From: Hericium rajendrae
Taxonomy: Eukaryota; Basidiomycota; Agaricomycetes; Russulales; Hericiaceae
Length of the DNA: 64,000 bases
Direction: 5' to 3'
Assembly: GCA_033439255.1 (NCBI GenBank)
Contig: CM065888.1
Location: 682,001-746,000, forward strand
Below, piece after piece: positions 10,458 through 22,180 of the stretch. Within the stretch, counting starts at the first letter, position 1; the number at the start of each line of letters is the position of its first letter. The translations under genes were made by a program, and so were the position numbers. Below the pieces are notes generated by a model that had not been told where the DNA came from, did no database searches, and worked only from the letters and a program-made list of their open reading frames with translations.

Positions 10458-11532
10458 AGATTCAGAAGGCGCGGGGTCGCATCCCCATCGAGAAGATTCA
10501 TTAGTGCAGGTCGTTTGACAGGACAGCAGCGAAGAAGCACCCCCATGTGCTCCCCTTCTTCAGCCCTGGTGAGGTTCCGAGCACGCGGCGCCTGTCATTT
10601 GGCAGTGCCCCGAGGAGAAGCTCGCGTGAGCCTTTGTGCGGTCGTAACTTGTGGGCCGAAAAATCGTCGAGTAGTCTGTTTCAATTGAGCCTTCTGTGTC
10701 GCTATTGGATGACTTCCCGTAGCCATCTGGAATGGTTTGCAGAATAGATTTTGGCCGCATTTGGTTTGCCGAATGATGGCCGAGAGTCAACCAAGCCTTT
10801 GGGTCACAAAACGGCGTTTCCAGATGTCGAGTCTGAAGGAGGGGGGTCCCCCCCTCTTCCAGAGCGATATCTGTATCAGTATAGATATTTTACTCTCCGC
10901 CAACCCTCTGCTCGCGCATTTGGCCTCTGTGTCAATGCTCAGCTCTTACTCCGCCTCTCTCCGCTCTGCACATCTGTATCTTGGCTCAGACACTGCGACT
11001 GCGTACGGGCTGCAACTGCTCTAACAATAAATTCCACTTCTCGTTCGAAGCCCGCACTAGTTATCTGCACGCAATCCAGATCCTGCGGGAAGTCATCCAT
11101 TGGGAGGTGAGCGCGCCCGTAAAACGCAAGCCCCGACGTATACACACGCGGATAACTTAACCCCGAGCGCGCTGCACACGGCGCACCGTGGGTGTGGGCG
11201 TACATGGCGGGCTCCCTGTCATGGAAATGAGGCAGCGGGGCCGAGGCCAAATGGAATTACTTACGGATTCCACGAGATCCTAGGCAAGAGAAGACATAAA
11301 ATTTACAGGCGCGCGACGGACCCGCGGGCGCGATGATGGGAGACAATTTGTTTTTTTAATGAGACGAAATGTTGAGTTTGCCCAAAGTGGTGCGAGGTGA
11401 CTGGAGAAAAGGCATTGTCAGTCGATTGTGATGCCGCTCAGTGGGAATTTTGTGCATATCGCCCGTCTTGCATGGCATGGAAGCTGCAGTGTGTCGGAGG
11501 AGTATCTGAGGCCCTGCTAGTCTCCCACAGGC
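10458..11532. other. Gene-poor spacer
   Basis: About 1.1 kb with no supported gene, RNA or long repeat. It forms the upstream side of the membrane-protein gene and the left flank of the DUF6589/helicase element. Confidence 0.35.
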
Positions 11533-11592
11533 AGACCTTGAGAGAGAGATGATGAGTCGATCAGACCTTGAGAGAGAGATGATGAGTCGATC
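11533..11592. repeat. 30-bp unit repeated twice in tandem, with hairpin
   Basis: Two perfect copies of a 30-bp unit starting agaccttgagagagagatga lie at 11533-11562 and 11563-11592. The stretch gcagacctt at 11531-11539 pairs with aaggtctgc at 11602-11610, so the array sits inside a potential stem. It lies 38 bp outside the inverted repeat that bounds the next element. Confidence 0.75.
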
Positions 11593-11629
11593 TCTCTGAT
11601 CAAGGTCTGCTATGAAACGCGCCACCGTA

Positions 11630-11647
11630 ACCGTAGTTCGACCTTCA
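11630..11647 (+). repeat. Left arm of 18-bp inverted repeat
   Basis: accgtagttcgaccttca, perfect partner of 21103-21120. It lies about 130 bp upstream of the first plausible ATG of the DUF6589 gene. Confidence 0.7.
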
Positions 11648-12564
11648 TCGATCACTGTGCGGCGTTAAGCCTCGGCATCCTTCGGCAGCCATTATCTGGT
11701 GCTTAGTCATACTGTGCTCTTAGCTGTACCATACATCCTTGCACGGCGAATAGAGTATTTTCACTCCGGTAAAATGACCTCTGAATGCAGAGACGGAGAG
11801 CAACTGTCAAGAAATGGCTCCCTCAACTTTGACAGTACTGCAGATTTATCTATCAATCCACTGTATCACCCTGATGCAAACAGCGAGCCCTGGTCTGCTT
11901 TTTCAACACCTCGACACCATCCGGTCTCTCCATCTTCGCGGCCACAACCATCAATGCTGCCGACATGTTATACACCTGCCCTATCAACACCATCACGATG
12001 ACGGTCCACTATTGTTGCATCACAGTCCACCCATGCACGTCGCATCGTCCATCCCCCTTCGAGTCAGCACAGTCCGACATCATCTCGCACTCAACGCCGC
12101 TCTCCGCAGAAGACACCTACGAAGAAGCGTTGTTCTCCTCGCACTACTGTACTTTTTCGACCATAAGTTCGTCATGCGTCCCGCGTGCTCTCTGAACCTA
12201 ACTTACCTGTTGATTTGTCCCATGTCACACTGTAAGTATGAACATAGAAACGTGACAAATTTCCTAGATAGATTTCCGTACAGAACAGAGCATGTACGGT
12301 ATTCTAGTGGTTAATGTCCTATAGAGACACGAAATGAGTGCGAATGGAAGTCAGCATTGCCGACAAGAGGAGGATGGAGTCCACGTAAAGGCGAAGCTCC
12401 CATTTGTGACGTGTCACAATGCGCTGAACCACAGCGCTGCCGCAGCAATGTCTCAACGTGTTTGAACAATGGCGTGCGGTTGAACATGTGTCCCATGTCC
12501 CAGCGGCATCTGAACCATGACCTCGTTGAACAACTTATGGGGTCACGGGTCACACAAATTCTGA

Positions 12565-15500
12565 ATGAACTTGTGGTCGAAAAAGTACAGTATTGAACAA
12601 AAGCTCACCATGATTTTTGATACTCTCGCCTTGGATGTCCAATGGTCCCTAGGAGAATTCTTGTATTACTTATTTCGCATTCGAGATGACAAACAAGTGG
12701 ACGACAAGGTCCATCGCACTCACCGTCATGCCGGCATTGTCAGCAAATTCATGCGAGGGGACCCGAACAAGACAACATATGGTCCTGCACATATTCTTGA
12801 GGCATGGCTGCGAACTCCAGATGGCCAGCCACGAAATGAAGCAGAGGATGCACAGATGTACGTGCTCGATACACCGTACCTGGACATCAAAGTTGGCCGC
12901 CCAGCAATAACTTCATTCGCTGTCCAAGTCACTCGTGACCGACTGCTTCATGAGCGCCGCGAAGCAGTCAAGCCAACAGCAGGATTACACTCATCTAGAA
13001 CAAAATTAGCAAGACAATCTGGACAGAAATTTGAAGATCTCGAGCCTGAATTTTTTCAAAATACCATCGAGCTCCTGCAGAAACATCAACGGCTGACGTT
13101 TGCCCTCCTCGTTGAGCTTGCAACTCCAAAACAACGTAGCGGCATATGTGAAGAAGTGGTGTCACAGCATTATCGGCCACCTGAACTGGTGAGTGCAGAT
13201 GAGCTACAATCTAGGGCTAAACTCATGCTGAGTCGGGTGCATTGACAGGTAGTGATGCAAGCCTTGAGTGCGATCGACTTCTCGCACAACAAATTTGCGA
13301 ACCGAGTTGCCCTTGCGACTGGGATGCTGTATTTCGCAACTGGTGTGCCGAACACGGTATATCGATATGGAAGTCGTGTTGGGATGTCGGTTAGTTATAG
13401 CACAACATACGTGACTCTCCAGAAGCTTGGCGAAGAGGACCGAGCATGACTACGCAAGATTGGCCAAGACCCAAGTCGCAGCTTGATCCTGCGACTGGAT
13501 AACATACAAATGTTTCACAAGCAGCGAGAGATGCGCATTGGACGAGAAGATCAAGTAATGATGGGCACCGCAGGCATTGCATGCGAGGCTGAGAAATTTG
13601 ATCCAGAAGTCATTAGCATGGAGAAACGGAAGGCGAAACTTGCCGAAGGCCTGCGGAAGAAGCTTACTGTCCCTCAGCTGCTCGAGATGATAGATCAGAA
13701 ACATCTGGATCTCGTTGGATCACTACACTGGCTCAAGACCCTCGTGACGTACATTCCTCAACTGAGAAAGCTCAAGGGTGATGTCATCAATCTGTTTCGA
13801 ACTGAAGGTGCTAAGTTTGTAATACCACTGACAAGAAAAACAAAGGCGTACCCTCTTGCAACGAATGACAAGCACGAGAGTCTTGTCACAGAACTGAAGG
13901 AAGCTCTTCTAGATTTCTTTGAACAAATGGGCCAGACTCGAGAGGATTTTCAGCCACGTCTTTGCTTCGTAGGCGGAGATGGGCTAACCTTCGAAAAAGT
14001 ACTGCAGCTTATAGACCTACTTCAGTTCGAGTTCGAGTCAGATTTCGACCGTCTCGACTGGATAGTTGCTTTCCTCGAGCTCTGGCATACAGGGTGGACA
14101 GACCTGTCCCGTATATTTGAAACCCATTGGGGAGATAATCTGGGACATGACCCATCAACTCTAGGACATAGCGCCTCAAAAATTAAATACAAGACACCAT
14201 CAAATCTCAAAAAGGTTGACTATTATAGCGGACATCACCTGGTTGATCTTGTTCTTGATGTTTGTATGATGGACTGCTGGCGGTGAGTGATAATAAATTT
14301 GCACACGAAGGTTCAGCATTGCTGACAAGCTTGTAAAGCATCTATTTTGGAGATAGCCATGACATTTTTGAAGAGTTTAATCAGCGAGAAAAGGCAGGGA
14401 ACATACCATCTTTGGACGAGCTTCGCAAGGCGGCAGAGGCTCTTCATCGTCGTTATTCAAGCAGTCGCTTGTATCAGCGTTCAATGAGGCCCCATGCGTC
14501 ACAAAACCCTAATTCAGTACCGCTAGGGGATTTTTGGGAGAAGCCAACTTGGATGCCTTCGTATACCGAAAATACTCACAATGGTGAACAGGAATCGAGC
14601 TCCAGCTCAGCACCATTTCTCGGCGATAAAGCGCTGGTGCAATCCCAGCGCTTCATGATGGATGCCTGGATGTCACGTGAGGTTGCCGAGGCTGTTCCTG
14701 CAGGAGACATTGGCCAAGTCTGGGAAATCTTTAAGGCAAGTCTTCAACTCAGTCCTATAAAGTGTACGAGTGACTCACCAAGCTTGATAACATTACAGTT
14801 ATGGGTCTTCACATTTGCGGGATCATCACATACAAAGTATCCGCATTATTTGCTGGAGATGATATGTACTCTGGAGTTAGAGTCGACTCCAGAGCTGAAA
14901 GAATTCTTCCTAGAAAACTGGCTCGTCAATCCATCAGGCAAAGCGGGAGGAGTAGTGGAAGGAGACTTATTTGTCGAGCACAATAACGAAACTCTGCAAG
15001 GTATCCCCGATCGTCAAGACTCATCGTGGGGCGGCAAGTTCTTGCGTGAGGTGGTTTCACCAAATACCTTTTGCATTGCCAAGACCAAGTCAGCATTCAT
15101 CGAAGGAACAGGTCTCAAGCCTGCGACATTATCACATCCATCGCCACATACGCGACCAGAATTTCGCACATTGAGCGAAGTTTACCGTGATGAAGGACTT
15201 CACTACTTTCGACCTGGGCGAGACTATAACACAAGCGAGCGAGACGTGGCTAATTTGGAACGTGGCATTGAACGATTGCGCAGAGGGAAGCTTGCGCAGT
15301 GGATAACATTGACGACATCTGCTCGAGGACTTTTCAGAGATGGGGAGCCGAGTGTACTGGAAACTGGAAGCGACACCTCGGCAGAGAACATTGAGGCCTT
15401 TCCCACCTCCGAAGAGCCTGAGACAGGAGCCAGTCATCAGACCGAAGAACCCACAACTACTGTGGCAGCCGACTTGCAGCCCCTTGCCTGGAGGTATTCA

Positions 15501-15674
15501 ATAATGGTCAACGGAGATTTGTTCACCGAAGCAGGAATCGAAGACCTGCTAAATCAAGAGATAGAGGAGGAAGGCATTCATTGGGAGGATGATCAGGATT
15601 ACACGGACTGGCAGGAAGTGGAGCCAGAATGTGTCCCCGAGATTGAATTCAATGATGATCCCGCCAAAAAGTAG
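12565..15674 (+). pseudogene. DUF6589 domain protein, decayed by in-frame TGA codons
   Basis: One reading frame runs from 12565 to 14282 and, after a 56-bp intron (14283-14338), from 14339 to 15674. It matches the DUF6589 family as I know it: LGEFLYYLFRIRD, then FDxxxNxFANRVALATGMLYFA-like, then RLDNIQMFHKQREMRIGRE, LCFVGGDGLTFEKVLQL, WTDLSRIFETHWGDNL and LKKVDYYSGHHLVDLVLDV, ending in an acidic tail. The frame is broken by TGA at 13243-13245 and 13447-13449. Both would be CGA (Arg) before a C-to-T change. A Ser/Pro/Arg-rich frame at 11774-12163 probably is the N-terminal exon and has another CGA-like TGA at 11999-12001. A 63-bp GC-AG intron (14736-14798) is in frame and stop-free. The function is unknown. 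Conserved acidic residues (Asp at 13498 and 13978) could be catalytic, but that is speculation. Confidence 0.75.
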
Positions 15675-17512
15675 TAGCCTATGCGCTGCTCTGCAGAACA
15701 TTCTCCTTAGTCTGTACATTTTGTTCAGTTTAGTCCGGCAATGAGAAGTCTCTTTAGTACGTACATGCAATGCCCGTTTTCGCTTGTTGATGGGTTCTAA
15801 GCTGCGGGCAGCTTCAGACGTCATGTTCGGTACATTTCTCCTGAGTTCAGTAAGCATCACAACATGTTTCCTTTGTACGGCATTACTTACTTTCGCTTTG
15901 ATGGGCTCAACGGAGGGACAATCTCCCGTGCAGTTCCTGGCCGTCGAATCCTGAGCACTATGCCGCTGTGCCTGGACTCCTTGTTCTGTCTCTCTGGAAT
16001 CTCGACTGTGACTTGTGGTCGTAGCCTTGATCTCGGGCTAGCAACAGACCCCGCATCTTCGGCTTGACTAGCTATCTCTGGCGAGTACTGTACTCCACTT
16101 ACAGTAGAGCTACGCAGGGCACTACAACATAGTTAGCATTGAATGAACATCTCACTACAGGATACTTACCTTGATTCGTTATTCGTTGTTGAGGTACCCA
16201 CATCAACGTCTGGGCGCGCAACGTCAGATTGTTGCAATGACTGTTGAATGTCGCCGATTGTCGCCCAAAGCTGATTGCGTCCCTTCTGCGCATACGGATT
16301 CAGCTGCAGAAACCTGTCAAGGTCGGAAGGTTCATCCAAAGCAAAAAAGCGCTTGAGGAGCGCCGTAATTGTCTCGTCAGGAAGATAGAGCTCAGGAGGC
16401 TCTAGCGCTGCCTCGACTTCATCTGCTGCCTCCCAGACCATCCAGCGATGTTCAATGAGATGCGCCCTTGCGACCTTGATCTCATGCGCCTTGAGACGTC
16501 TTGGCTGTGTGACGAACATGGAAGCGGGATCCTCGAAAACGAAGTTGATGGATTTGGGCTGTAAGTCGCCAGGATCGACAATGCACCCTGAGCAGTTGCA
16601 CGGAATAGAAACTGACAGTGGAGGACGAGAGGTGCATGATGGACAGGTGCACGGTGGATCAGATGATGGATTATCGTAGAGACGATCTTGCTCCTTGCGA
16701 AGACAGGGGGCAAGAAGTAGCCGGGCGACACCATCATGCATCTCCGGTGGCTTCTTTTGACGACGTGATGGATTCCCATCTGCCAGTCCTAGAACTGCCG
16801 ACGCAGTCTTGTGTGCAGATGCCGGGACATACATGATGCCTCGAGCATCGGTCACCACCGTGCGATCGCGGCCTGCTCTTCCGATCCTCTGGAAGAATTC
16901 ATCCGGGTCGGTCAGTTGACCCATGGTTATGACGTCGCGGATGTCCGGCACATTGACGCCTTGCGAGAGGGCATCCGTTCATCTGAAAAATTTGCCAGTG
17001 ATACATAGCTCTATAAAGTCTACATAGATCTCCTAGCTTCATAGTATCGCCCTTTATTGTATAGCCTACATAGCCAAAGGGTGATGCTATGTAGTACTAT
17101 GAGGCTCAAAGGTGATGCTATGGAGTGCTATGGAGTGCTATCATAACTATGAGAGCTGACTATGTAACTATGATAGTATGACTAGCTATGAAAGCTATCA
17201 GTATCTATTAAAGCTATAAGGCTTATGTGTCTTACATATCTTATATTCAATATGTGTCTCACATAACCTATACATAATATATGTCTCATATATCCTACAT
17301 TCAATATGTGTCTCATATATTTTATATTTTATATGTAGACCTGATATATATATTAAAGCAAGAAAATTTATTAGAACTTTAAATCTTTTCTACAATTATA
17401 TCAAAATTAATAACATATGATCACACAGATATAAAGTATTTCAATGCATCAAGATTATATTGATATAATACAAACACTACTACTAACTAAAAAGCAAAAA
17501 TATAAGTAAGAA

Positions 17513-17605
17513 AATATAAGATAAGATAAGATAATGCAAGAAGATAAGATAAGAATATAAGATAAGATAAGATAAGAATATAAGATAAGATAAGATAAGT
17601 AAAAG
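17513..17605. repeat. AT-rich microsatellite (ataag/ataagat)n
   Basis: Irregular runs of the pentamer ataag with gaatat interruptions, inside the 2.94-kb insertion. No coding potential beyond low-complexity hydrophobic frames. Confidence 0.8.
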
Positions 17606-17797
17606 AATATAAAAAACTAAGAAAAGATAAGAAAAAGTGAGTCTTAGAAGATAAAGATAACACATAAGAACTTACCAAAGTAACAAAAAGCGAAAATCTC
17701 AAAAACTAACTTAAAGACATTAGTATTAGTATAAGCAATAAGAGATCAACAATTAAAACATTACCTTAGAGATAACAAACGAGCAAGAAGTAACAAC

Positions 17798-17860
17798 GAG
17801 CGAGCAAGCAACAGCGACGAGCGAGCAAGCAACAGCGACGAGCGAGCAAAGAACGTCGAC
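17798..17860. repeat. 21-bp tandem repeat, three units
   Basis: Units at 17798-17818, 17819-17839 and 17840-17860 begin gagcgagcaa. The first two are identical and the third is diverged at its 3' half. On the minus strand they encode repeated LLARRCC in a short frame (18044-17766) that I do not consider a supported gene. Confidence 0.8.
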
Positions 17861-18368
17861 GAAGGCGTCGACGTCGCAAGAGACAGTGGGGGTTAAAGAG
17901 CAAGAGGGAACGCGCAATCGCGCGAGCTTTATATAGGAATCCCGGGCAAAGCCGGGATTCGCGGCTGCCGGGTGCTTGCCGAGCGTCGCGTCGAGACTGG
18001 GTGCCAGACTTCACTAGACGGACTTGGCTCCCTGTGAACTTCACGTACAGTAGATACTTATAACGCTCATTCGTTCGTATTTTATATACAATTTATAGCT
18101 ATCTAGTTTTTCTCTGAATTTATGTGATTTTATTTGATTTGTAGTGGCTCGAGGAACGTACCTTCGCTCGTTCGGTGGCTGAAGCACCGAAACGCGCGTC
18201 GAAGTTCGTTTCCCTCCCTGTCCCTACCACCTTCACTGTCCTCCCTCCACTCTCCACCCTTCTTCTCTTCCTCTGATTCGTCGAACCGCATGCCGGAGGG
18301 ACTCAGTAGGATGCAGAGGGCCTCGAAGGTGAGTAAAAAAAACTTTTATTTCGTTTATTCATGCTAAC

Positions 18369-18404
18369 GTCGAGAGTATCGCTCGTTCGAGCGATACTCT
18401 CGAC
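18369..18404. repeat. Perfect 36-bp palindrome (17-bp arms, 2-base centre)
   Basis: gtcgagagtatcgctcg (18369-18385), tt, and its exact reverse complement (18388-18404). It lies near the junction between the AT-rich left half and the GC-rich right half of the 2.94-kb insertion. It could form a cruciform or a very stable RNA hairpin. Confidence 0.9.
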
Positions 18405-18879
18405 TTATTCCGTTCTCCCGTGCCCCCATCCCCCTCGCCTCCGACTGCCGCCCCTCCCGCATCACCTTGCACTCCACCGACCTCGCCGCCTTGCCGTCAC
18501 GTCGCTAGCGCCCGGCGCGCCGCCTCCAGCGACCACGATCAGCAGAGTGCGCCCGATCGTCCACGACCCGGGACGGGCACGCCAGCACACGCACGTCGCG
18601 CGTGGTCCTTCCATCCGCGCGACCATCTACGCCATCGCGCCTCGCGCGCACGCCTGCCGCGCTGCGCACGGGCCCGCGGCAGCCTGGCGTCTCGGGCACG
18701 TCCCTCGTCCCTCACGCATGGACCAGCCGCCCGCCGCGCCTCGCGCACGCTGCCCAGTACCCCGCGCATGTCGCCCAGTGCCTCGCGCACGGGCCTGCCG
18801 CCGTGTCTCACGCACGCAGGTCTGACGCGTCGCGCACGAGCCCGCGACAACCCAGCGCCTGCGTCGCGCACGGGCCCGC

Positions 18880-19340
18880 CGACGCCTCATGGTCCCTCGC
18901 GCCTTGTGCGGATCCCTCGCACCTCGCGCACGTCGTCCGTCCCTCGCACGTCGCCCGTCCCTCGCGCGTCACCCGTCCCTCGCGCACGTCCGTCCCTCGC
19001 GCACGTCCGTCCCTCGCGCACGCCCGGCGTCCCTCGCGCACGTCCGTCCCTCGCGCACGCCCGGCGTCCCTCGCGCACGTCCGTCCCTCGCGCACGCCTG
19101 GCGTCCCTCGCGCACACCCGGCGTCCCTTGCGCACGTCGCGCGTCCCTCGCACACGTCGCGCATCCCTCGCGCACGTCGCCCGCGCTCGCGCACGTCGCC
19201 CTCGCCTCGGACCCGTCACCAGCGCCTCGTGCCCTCGCCAACGCCTCGCGCACGTTGCCCGCGCCTCGCGCACGTCACCCGCGCCTCGCAAACGGTCCCC
19301 GCGCTACGCGCATGAACCCCGCGCCATGCGCACGAACCCC
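18880..19340. repeat. GC-rich degenerate tandem array of CCCTCGCGCACG units
   Basis: About 30 variants of a 12-18-bp unit, cctcgcgcacgtccgtcc/cgcccggcgt. The composition is so biased that all six frames are open over hundreds of bases (both strands give Arg/Ala/Pro/Ser-rich frames). I therefore read it as a satellite-like array and not as a gene. It forms the right half of the 2.94-kb insertion. Confidence 0.75.
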
Positions 19341-21102
19341 GCGCCACGCGCACGAACCCCACGTTCCGCATTTCCCACGCGCAGGCCCGCCCTATTGTGC
19401 GCCGGCCCCACAGCATGCGCGCTCCCGCGCACGGGTCGCGAGCTTCGCGCGCGCCGTTGCACCTCCCATGCAGCATCGCGCGCACCAGCCGCACCCTTGT
19501 GTGCGTGCACGCCTTGTCATCTTGCGAGCGCGCATGTAATGTAGTATACTTGACTGTAGTAGTAGTTAAATATAATTTAGTTTGATCTGTTTCAAATATA
19601 TTATGCTCGAAATCATAGTCTCTACATCAACTATAGATATTATAGCAACCTGAGAGTCCATAGTAACCTTGGAAGTTCTGTATGGAACATAGTATCTATA
19701 GGATACATAGAGGGAGACTAAAAACACATAAGTTACATAGCAGGCATAGTAGTGTCCTATCACTATGTAATACTATATACCCCTCACCCATGACTATGAT
19801 AGCTATGATAGCTACCATAGTCCTGTATAGCTGTGTAGCCCAACTACATAGCAGCCATAGCACTATGCAACCAGGAATAGCATTGGCTGGCAGCTATGTA
19901 GATTTCAGATTTTTCAGATGTTGCAATGATGATCTGAAGCCCAGATCCTGGAGTGAGCATTAGCTCTTGAGTGCGTGCATTGTAGGTGACAGAGTTAAGG
20001 GAGTTATAAGAGCGAATGCGTGTCGAGCGATCAGGGAAAGGTGGTGCTCGCAGCCAGAGATAAACCATTACTCGAAATCCGAGGAGGATCGTGTTGCAGA
20101 AGACGATAGTCTTGCGATTCTTCTCCAGAATCCAGTCTAGATCTGGGAAGTTCCAGCCCCCAAGACCTGCAGTCAACATGCGGACAAGGAGCTGGATGTC
20201 CGGGCGCATGTTGGAACGACGAATGAGATGGTATTGCCCTTCCTTGAGTCCTAGGAATCGACAGATATTCGCATGACGTCCTCCCGCGAGGAGCGTGGCT
20301 GTGAGCGTGATGAGAACAATCCGTTCCGGAAGGCACGCTCGAATGAAACCGATTTGCTGGAATGACTTCCGGAAGCTGGCTCCCCAGATATCGAGCAGCT
20401 GAATCTCGTCAACACCAATAAAAAAAATGCATGCTGAGAATGCACAGTCTTGGATCAGATCTTCAAATGCACGTGAAATGAGCTGCTCAGGCAAGAGGAG
20501 GAGGATGGAAACACCATTTCGGGCCTCTTGCCAGAGGTTCTTGCCCTTTTTGCGAGCTTCCTCGAGCTTCTGCGCATTTATTGCGAGAGATTTCACGCCA
20601 ACTGCTTCGAATTCTTTCTCCTAAATGTCCTTCATAAGCCAAATTCTGAACGAGACAAGGTTTCGCACACCTTTTCGAGCTCGAGACTGTTGGTGGGAAA
20701 CATGGCAATCATTACTGGATGTTGGGGAAACGACTTTTTAACGTGAGCAGAAATTGAAGCATCGTGATGGAGGGCATAGATAAGGAGGATTGGGAGGAAA
20801 AGAAAGGCAGTTTTACCCCCACCGGTAGGGATACAACCGAGGAGGTCCTGACCATGGAGGGCTGCGCAGGTACCTTCTATCTGGTAATCATGCAGGTCGA
20901 ACGGGACTTTGGGTTTCAGAAGCTGTCACGCAAGGTCTTGTCCTGCAGAGGAGAGGAAGTTGAACGTTGCAGGTGGACCATGGGAGCTTTGCGGCATGCG
21001 AAGGTGGTGAAGGAAGTTGACTGAAGACGCCGCGACGCGTCGAACGCGTCCGTTGACCGTGTGGCTGTGCAAAACTGCATCTCACGTGCACCGTGTTATT
21101 GC

Positions 21103-21120
21103 TGAAGGTCGAACTACGGT
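21103..21120 (-). repeat. Right arm of 18-bp inverted repeat
   Basis: Exact reverse complement of 11630-11647. It lies about 105 bp upstream of the helicase's first plausible ATG (minus strand). Confidence 0.7.
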
Positions 21121-22180
21121 ATGACCCTAGCAGTTCGATAAAGACTAGGCCCTGCGGGGTCACGTCGCGATATGACCGGCAGTCCTACTATAGGTGGGGC
21201 TGCTTGAGGCTCTAGCTGAGTTTGAATTGTAGCGGGGCTTTAATCATAGCGGGGCTCGAAACTCGAGCACATAATGGCGCCAAACACCGTCTCGGCCAAT
21301 CATTTGAGTCGCTCTCGAAGCACAACGCCACACCGGAGGAGGGCCAGAGGAGGGGCGAGCACTCACTGCACAAGGCGGAGCACCAGCGGAGCGAGGCCGG
21401 TGCGAACTCGAGCCTGCCAAGCTAAAAAATTGCACCAGGAGGGCAGCAATTATTATCTTCTGCATGCGCACATTATGGGTGTGCGAGAGGCGCAGGCCCG
21501 AGTCCCTACTAATACAGCAGGTAGGAGCTCCATATGTATGAGCAGCCATAGCAGCTGTACATGGAGGAGTGTGCATGTGAGCGACACGCAAAATCCATTT
21601 TAATGTTATGAGGTTTTGTACATATACTTGTATTTAATTTTTGATGAGTCGCGGTGTTCCCGCCCACTGCCCGCATGCAACGGCACATGGCACGGGGCCA
21701 CGGTGAACATGAGGGAGAGACAGAAAGTGCTTTCCCTGAGATCATGCAGGACCGTGTGGCGATGTCTAACGATGCACGATGTCTCGATCTTGACTAAAAT
21801 GATGTGTTGTCACTATCGTACCCACGCTTAATTACATTTTGATGGACCTTGTTCGGTTCGAACTGCATCGTTGATCCGTACGTTATCGAGCGCCCATGAG
21901 TCGAGAGCAGCGAGCCTCCGATTTTGACCCTCTGCAGCCTCCCTCTCCTCCCTCCCCTCTTCGAATTAATTTAATTAATTTTAATTAATTTAGTTCTTTT
22001 CCGTGCCAACAGCCCCAACTATAGTCCGAGTGCCATATGACCGGCCCTAAATGATCGTCTGACATTAAATGCCAAATGCGGCAAGGGTTTTTAGGGCCGG
22101 CTGGAATTTGATACGTACATCTTGTGTTCACAACTTTCTATCACTGTCCTCAAGCATGTCCAAGTGTCGGTAGAAACAAC
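21121..22180. other. Gene-poor spacer with an inverted-repeat hairpin at 22041-22100
   Basis: No supported gene. It contains an AT-only patch of repeated TTAATTAA-like sequence near 21964-21995. It also contains an 11-bp perfect inverted repeat, ccggccctaaa at 22041-22051 and tttagggccgg at 22090-22100, enclosing 38 bp. The right end abuts the target duplication of copia element A. Confidence 0.5.

Follow-up and report, generated by a model that had tools for sequence, protein, structure and literature searches.

A probable two-gene DNA transposon, most likely AcademH, pairing a DUF6589 protein with a RecQ-like helicase in Hericium rajendrae

The stretch of DNA analysed here, which we refer to as the window, comprises 64,000 nucleotides of the fungus Hericium rajendrae (assembly GCA_033439255.1, contig CM065888.1, positions 682,001 to 746,000). 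It holds a gene for a DUF6589 protein and, converging on it from the minus strand, a RecQ-like helicase gene, both of them inside an 18-bp perfect inverted pair. We are confident, short of certainty, that this locus is an old copy of a DNA transposon with two genes, most likely of the AcademH class, in which the DUF6589 protein would be the DDE transposase and the RecQ-like protein the element's own helicase. The original prediction had proposed a mobile DNA element in which DUF6589 acts as the recombinase with the assistance of the helicase, and this core is supported by the pairing of the two genes at 23 of 29 helicase loci, by exact target-site duplications at 12 of the 23 pairs, by homology that stops at the element ends, and by invariant acidic residues in DUF6589.

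Organization of the locus and the ends of the element

The inverted pair, formed by ACCGTAGTTCGACCTTCA and its exact reverse complement, is real and lies where it had been described; 100 shuffles gave a mean of 0.02 matches to the 18-mer, and none gave two. The window holds no further match at up to three mismatches, and in the 46.8-Mb genome the only exact copies are the two in the window, with one further site at two mismatches. The pair had been taken for the terminal repeat of the element, which we reject because no duplication abuts it and because YAGNCT ends with a duplication lie outside it; the 18-mer is subterminal (Table 1). The earlier statement that there is no target-site duplication is correct at the 18-mers and incorrect at the real ends, 112 bp and 27 bp farther out. 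Nor do the arms enclose two convergent genes and nothing else, as first described, since two younger repeats of 2,941 bp and 448 bp also lie between them. Eleven of 16 other genome matches begin with the first base of the element, which likewise fixes the left end, and the eight bases TAGTCTCC there are identical at the DUF6589-side end of five relatives (C7, C9_182, C9_960, C6, and C9_1623).

Subterminal inverted repeats recur among the related elements. When each element was scored by the best ungapped match between its two ends, the last 8 bp being left out, the window reached 18, C9_1623 17, C7 13, and C6 and C9_153 12 each, against a maximum of 10 in 54 mismatched end controls; C9_182, C9_960, and C16_59 scored low (9, 8, and 7). 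Five of the eight elements compared, namely the window and four of seven relatives, thus carry such a repeat, with different letters in each, and we regard it as a putative binding site of the transposase.

Table 1. Coordinates of the element and its features in the window
Feature	Position	Strand	Basis or detail
Entire element (9,630 bp with its two younger insertions)	11518..21147		YAGNCT ends directly next to an exact 8-bp direct repeat
Left target-site duplication, GGCCCTGC	11510..11517		YAGNCT rule; controls 0/506 with at least 7 bp
DUF6589-side terminus, TAGTCTCC	11518..11525	+	YAGNCT rule
Subterminal hairpin, arms GCAGACCTTGA and TCAAGGTCTGC	11531..11610	+	0/300 shuffles as good
Subterminal inverted repeat, DUF6589 side (18-mer of the original prediction)	11630..11647	+	Window search and end-to-end matching
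Younger 448-bp repeat, inverted ends TACTGTACTTTTTCGACCA, in 5' part of DUF6589 region	12145..12592		Genome matches
DUF6589 exon, probable DDE transposase	13450..14286	+	PF20231, E 4.8e-62; first Asp 13498-13500, second Asp 13978-13980, invariant His 14086-14088
DUF6589 exon	14337..15674	+	PF20231, E 2.5e-50; invariant Glu codon 14976-14978
Helicase piece beyond insertion, Helicase_C end and C terminus	16166..16979 (open frame 16166-16978)	-	PF00271, E 4.7e-06
Younger 2,941-bp repeat in helicase gene, inverted ends CATCTGAAAAAT	16980..19920		TT on both flanks
Helicase piece up to insertion	19921..20620 (open frame 19844-20620)	-	Open frames and helicase search
Helicase piece, DEAD-domain start	20632..20925	-	PF00270, E 2.2e-06
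Subterminal inverted repeat, helicase side	21103..21120	-	Window search and end-to-end matching
Helicase-side terminus, TAGTCTTTATCG	21136..21147	-	YAGNCT rule; compare TAGTCTGTATCG in C7
Right target-site duplication, GGCCCTGC	21148..21155		YAGNCT rule

Recurrence of the gene pair and the DUF6589 protein

A search of the genome gave 68 matching pieces for PF20231 (DUF6589) and 31 for the window helicase, which cluster into 34 DUF6589 loci and 29 helicase loci. Twenty-three of the latter have a DUF6589 locus no more than 17 kb away, where 0.7 would be expected by chance, and 21 of these 23 pairs lie within about 3.1 kb; the pairs are convergent in 19 cases and divergent in four, and six helicase loci have no DUF6589 partner. 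Some copies are near-identical, for instance C8_743 and C9_216 (98.9% over 3,730 bp).

Two further arrangements were observed in the course of this search. The DUF6589 loci L018 (C14:1380022-1383717) and L019 (C14:400707-404402), on the same contig, are 99.6% alike, a likeness that extends to about 8.3 kb; the window helicase query found no partner helicase for them. The loci L005 and L006 (C16:253918-270263) are two divergent DUF6589/helicase pairs that form, head to head, an almost perfect inverted repeat with a likeness of 99.7%.

Target-site duplications were sought at all 23 pairs, and a strict scan for a 9-bp duplication beside inverted ends was positive at eight, with scores of 17-22 against a highest control score of 16. 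An exact duplication with YAGNCT on both sides is present at 11 of the 23 pairs, eight with 9 bp and three with 8 bp (the window, C16_59, and C9_153), by a rule that was set after the 8-bp cases had been seen by eye and was thus not blind, while its controls were: 505 of 506 mismatched left/right combinations gave nothing, one gave 6 bp, and none reached 7 bp. Terminal inverted repeats take the form of these YAGNCT ends at the 11 pairs, and long ones are found in four copies, three of which (C8_743, C11_593, and C2_4076) have the termini TAGTCT, TAGACT, and CAGGCT and exact 9-bp duplications; in the fourth, C9_1262, with inverted ends of 333 bp, the flanks differ and no duplication was seen. 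The nearest relative of the window element, C18, adds a twelfth case, with 8 bp, by homology and not by the rule. Its left end was placed at C18:197798 by the terminal pattern, the left flank CTGCCCTC recurs at C18:226066 directly after sequence aligning to the helicase end of the window element, and its helicase-side end, TTGTCCTTTGCG, deviates from YAGNCT; the element presumed between these ends spans 28.3 kb. The borders of homology agree with the ends so placed: C9_960 and C9_182 begin to align 1 bp beyond their predicted left ends, and on the right the likeness breaks off exactly at the end of each element.

PF20231 is listed as of unknown function, three DUF6589 pieces had no match in NCBIfam, and our literature search found no paper with the name DUF6589. 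Open-frame pieces of 30 loci, some of them from near-identical copies, were compared in profile alignments. An aspartate in GDQLT or GGDGLT is present in 29 of 29 rows, a histidine in 28 of 28, and a glutamate in 27 of 27; a strict pattern search for all three catalytic residues detected the glutamate in only 5 of the 30 loci, and these alignments took its place. Judged from the protein sequence, this pattern of aspartate, histidine, and glutamate fits a DDE transposase. A relative's helicase has RecQ as its best match among solved structures (4tmu, E 1e-21) and matches RecQ models of NCBIfam at E 2.7e-21, below the curated cut-offs; a literature search gave nothing joining RecQ, terminal inverted repeats, and Agaricomycetes.

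Classification among the helicase-bearing transposons of fungi

The element kind is most likely one already described, AcademH, a little-studied class of which the window element is a probable new member. AcademH elements encode a helicase and make 9- or 10-bp duplications (PMC10045372), and occur at low copy number in Basidiomycota, Ascomycota, and Mucoromycota (PMC10799480), with non-autonomous Academ elements being widespread in Marasmius oreades (PMC8290104). The present elements resemble them in joining a transposase to a helicase in a fungus and in the 9-bp duplications of eight of the 23 pairs, and differ in the 8-bp duplications of the window and three relatives (C16_59, C9_153, and C18) and in the hairpin that part of the copies carry on one end. 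AcademX, of the same superfamily as AcademH, is characterized by 3- or 4-bp duplications and by a nuclease where AcademH has its helicase (PMC10045372), neither of which is seen here.

In the mechanism that we propose, the transposase would bind the subterminal repeats, which in the window copy are the 18-mers, and would cut at the YAGNCT ends, joining them to target DNA cleaved with a stagger of 8 or 9 bp, and the helicase may open the ends or help in repair. If DUF6589 is indeed an AcademH-like transposase, a whole multi-copy fungal family receives a name and can be masked by annotators, with 34 loci in this genome.

Several observations weigh against an AcademH transposon at this locus. The strict 9-bp scan missed the window, whose best score of 11 is at background, as it missed C16_59 and C9_153; the duplications there are of 8 bp, and this length is itself shorter than that reported for AcademH. 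In 11 of the 23 pairs, the stretches examined gave no ends flanked by an exact duplication: C8_1873 and C9_1262 have differing flanks at the two ends, C2_1932 has one end only, and C9_216 has a left end without its first bases, and C2_502, C4, C2_1764, and the four divergent pairs also belong to the pairs without an exact duplication; in these 11, the true end may lie outside the stretch examined. The original prediction had named other pairs lacking any terminal repeat as evidence that would count against it, and on this point the outcome is mixed, 12 pairs having exact duplications and 11 not. All evidence for the element comes from the genome of one strain. In the DUF6589 protein, the earlier aspartate, in a [YHTLF]DN motif, was found by motif in only 20 of the 30 loci, an AlphaFold2 model of one window exon has an unusable fold (mean predicted local distance difference test score, pLDDT, 35.4), and a profile search of solved structures with the DUF6589 query A1 gave no match up to E 1. 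Finally, the likeness to AcademH, as judged from published descriptions, is one of gene content, host group, and most duplication lengths.

This level of comparison, and duplications of 8 or 9 bp in place of the 9 or 10 bp reported for AcademH, leave some room for a separate DDE superfamily that joined a RecQ-like helicase independently and only resembles AcademH; given the agreement with AcademH in gene content, in host group, and in the length of most duplications, we hold this to be improbable. Kolobok elements insert at TTAA, and none of the 12 duplications found here, all of 8 or 9 bp, is TTAA, which leaves next to nothing for an assignment to KolobokH. This latter is a helicase-bearing fungal cut-and-paste group named beside AcademH (PMC10799480). 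The remaining explanation, two ordinary host genes flanked by a chance repeat, is refuted by the recurrence of the pair, the duplications, and the sharp homology borders, its one point of support being that subtelomeric fungal RecQ helicase genes exist outside known transposons, with a RecQ-like core helicase and many copies at chromosome ends (PMC7473861), for which the cited passages mention no DUF6589 partner, as against a partner at 23 of 29 loci here.

Crypton and Starship elements carry a tyrosine recombinase, and Helitrons are not known to make target duplications. A Pfam scan of six window frames matched only DUF6589, DEAD, and Helicase_C, with no tyrosine recombinase and no HUH nuclease among the matches. 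Helitrons are likewise mobile and helicase-bearing, and are set apart by an HUH nuclease/Y1 transposase (PMC12730594), whereas the elements described here have a DDE-like protein and target duplications.

The hairpin end, tiny relatives, and younger repeats

Between its DUF6589-side terminus and the 18-mer, the window element has a hairpin that includes a 30-bp tandem duplication (11532-11591). Similar hairpins, with arms around CAGACC / GGTCTG, lie 8-13 bp in from the TAGTCTCC end in six elements (the window, C7, C9_182, C9_960, C8_1873, and C2_1932), four of which are closely related to each other, and were equalled by none of 300 mononucleotide shuffles. The hairpins of C8_743 (4-5/300), C6 (9/300), and C2_4076 (11/300, at one end) are weaker. 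Under dinucleotide shuffling, three hairpin ends gave z scores of -4.5, -3.2, and -5.2, and three opposite ends -2.1, -0.6, and -1.5.

Five elements in which both features could be placed allow the spacing of the ends to be compared. From the subterminal repeat to the hairpin end, the distances are 112, 84, 76, 78, and 73 bp, and to the other end 27, 27, 12, 31, and 25 bp; once the hairpin lengths (80, 52, 62, 42, and 43 bp) are subtracted, the two sides differ by 5, 5, 2, 5, and 5 bp, and their correlation goes up from 0.27 to 0.999. Since both features were located by eye and 18 of 120 permutations of the other end performed equally well, the equal spacing is suggestive only. Because removing the hairpin length puts the repeat at a near-equal distance from both ends, the hairpin might be folded out when the ends are paired. 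The spacing agreement would likewise follow if the hairpin were the remnant of an ancient insertion into one end, with no part in transposition. In keeping with such a remnant, the hairpin is not significant in C9_1623 (44/300), C16_59 (55/300), C9_153 (109/300), and C9_1262 (126/300), and the six stems have two base pairs altered in both arms, a number that is not beyond shuffling (50/500). Against it, diverged copies preserve the stem despite two-sided changes, none of 500 shuffles attaining its covariation score, and C11_593, whose inverted ends are long, carries such a hairpin at both ends (0/300). We see the remnant explanation as evenly poised between right and wrong. The asymmetric end and the short relatives described next raise questions as to how a transposase recognizes unequal ends and what purpose the helicase serves, and the hairpin end, the 8-bp duplications, and the 55-bp units are the features to compare with described AcademH elements.

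Sixteen other places match the first 323 bp of the element; at 11 of them the match opens with the very first base and extends over 42-46 bp. A 24-base terminal pattern occurs at 19 places including the window (reversed control, 0). Excluding C18, which is a full-size element, and four further places, we examined 13 such tiny units, of which five have an exact duplication of 7-9 bp at 53-64 bp downstream and eight have none; among 156 controls, two gave 6 bp and none gave 7 bp or more. The second side of these five units varies (53, 55, 57, 60, and 64) and lies near the position at which the second arm of the hairpin starts in C18. An origin of these units as introns or introners was set aside because no consistent splice-site pair is visible in the letters. 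The units could be very short elements with two ends, or else one-ended products; that these units of about 55 bp arise by one-ended transposition, each beginning precisely with the first base of the hairpin end, is a tentative idea, which we think rather unlikely to hold. Were it true, a full-size hairpin-end transposon would spill minimal 55-bp insertions with no need of a second terminal repeat.

Both genes of the window copy are interrupted by younger repeats, and on the strength of its sequence we therefore take this copy to be probably inactive. The first 921 bp of the repeat that splits the helicase gene match at least 39 other places (40 of 396 candidates were scored), and C18 holds a copy at C18:217816-218839; the repeat consists of an AT-rich half and a GC-rich half with tandem units of about 20 bp. 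The 448-bp repeat is found at four other places at 94-96%, from exactly the same first base, and partial matches to it lie up to 10 kb from three partnerless helicase loci on C1 and C11. The helicase-side end of the element (21018-21147) contains palindromes with ACGCGT, as do those of C7 and C9_182, which presumably resemble fungal cell-cycle promoter boxes.

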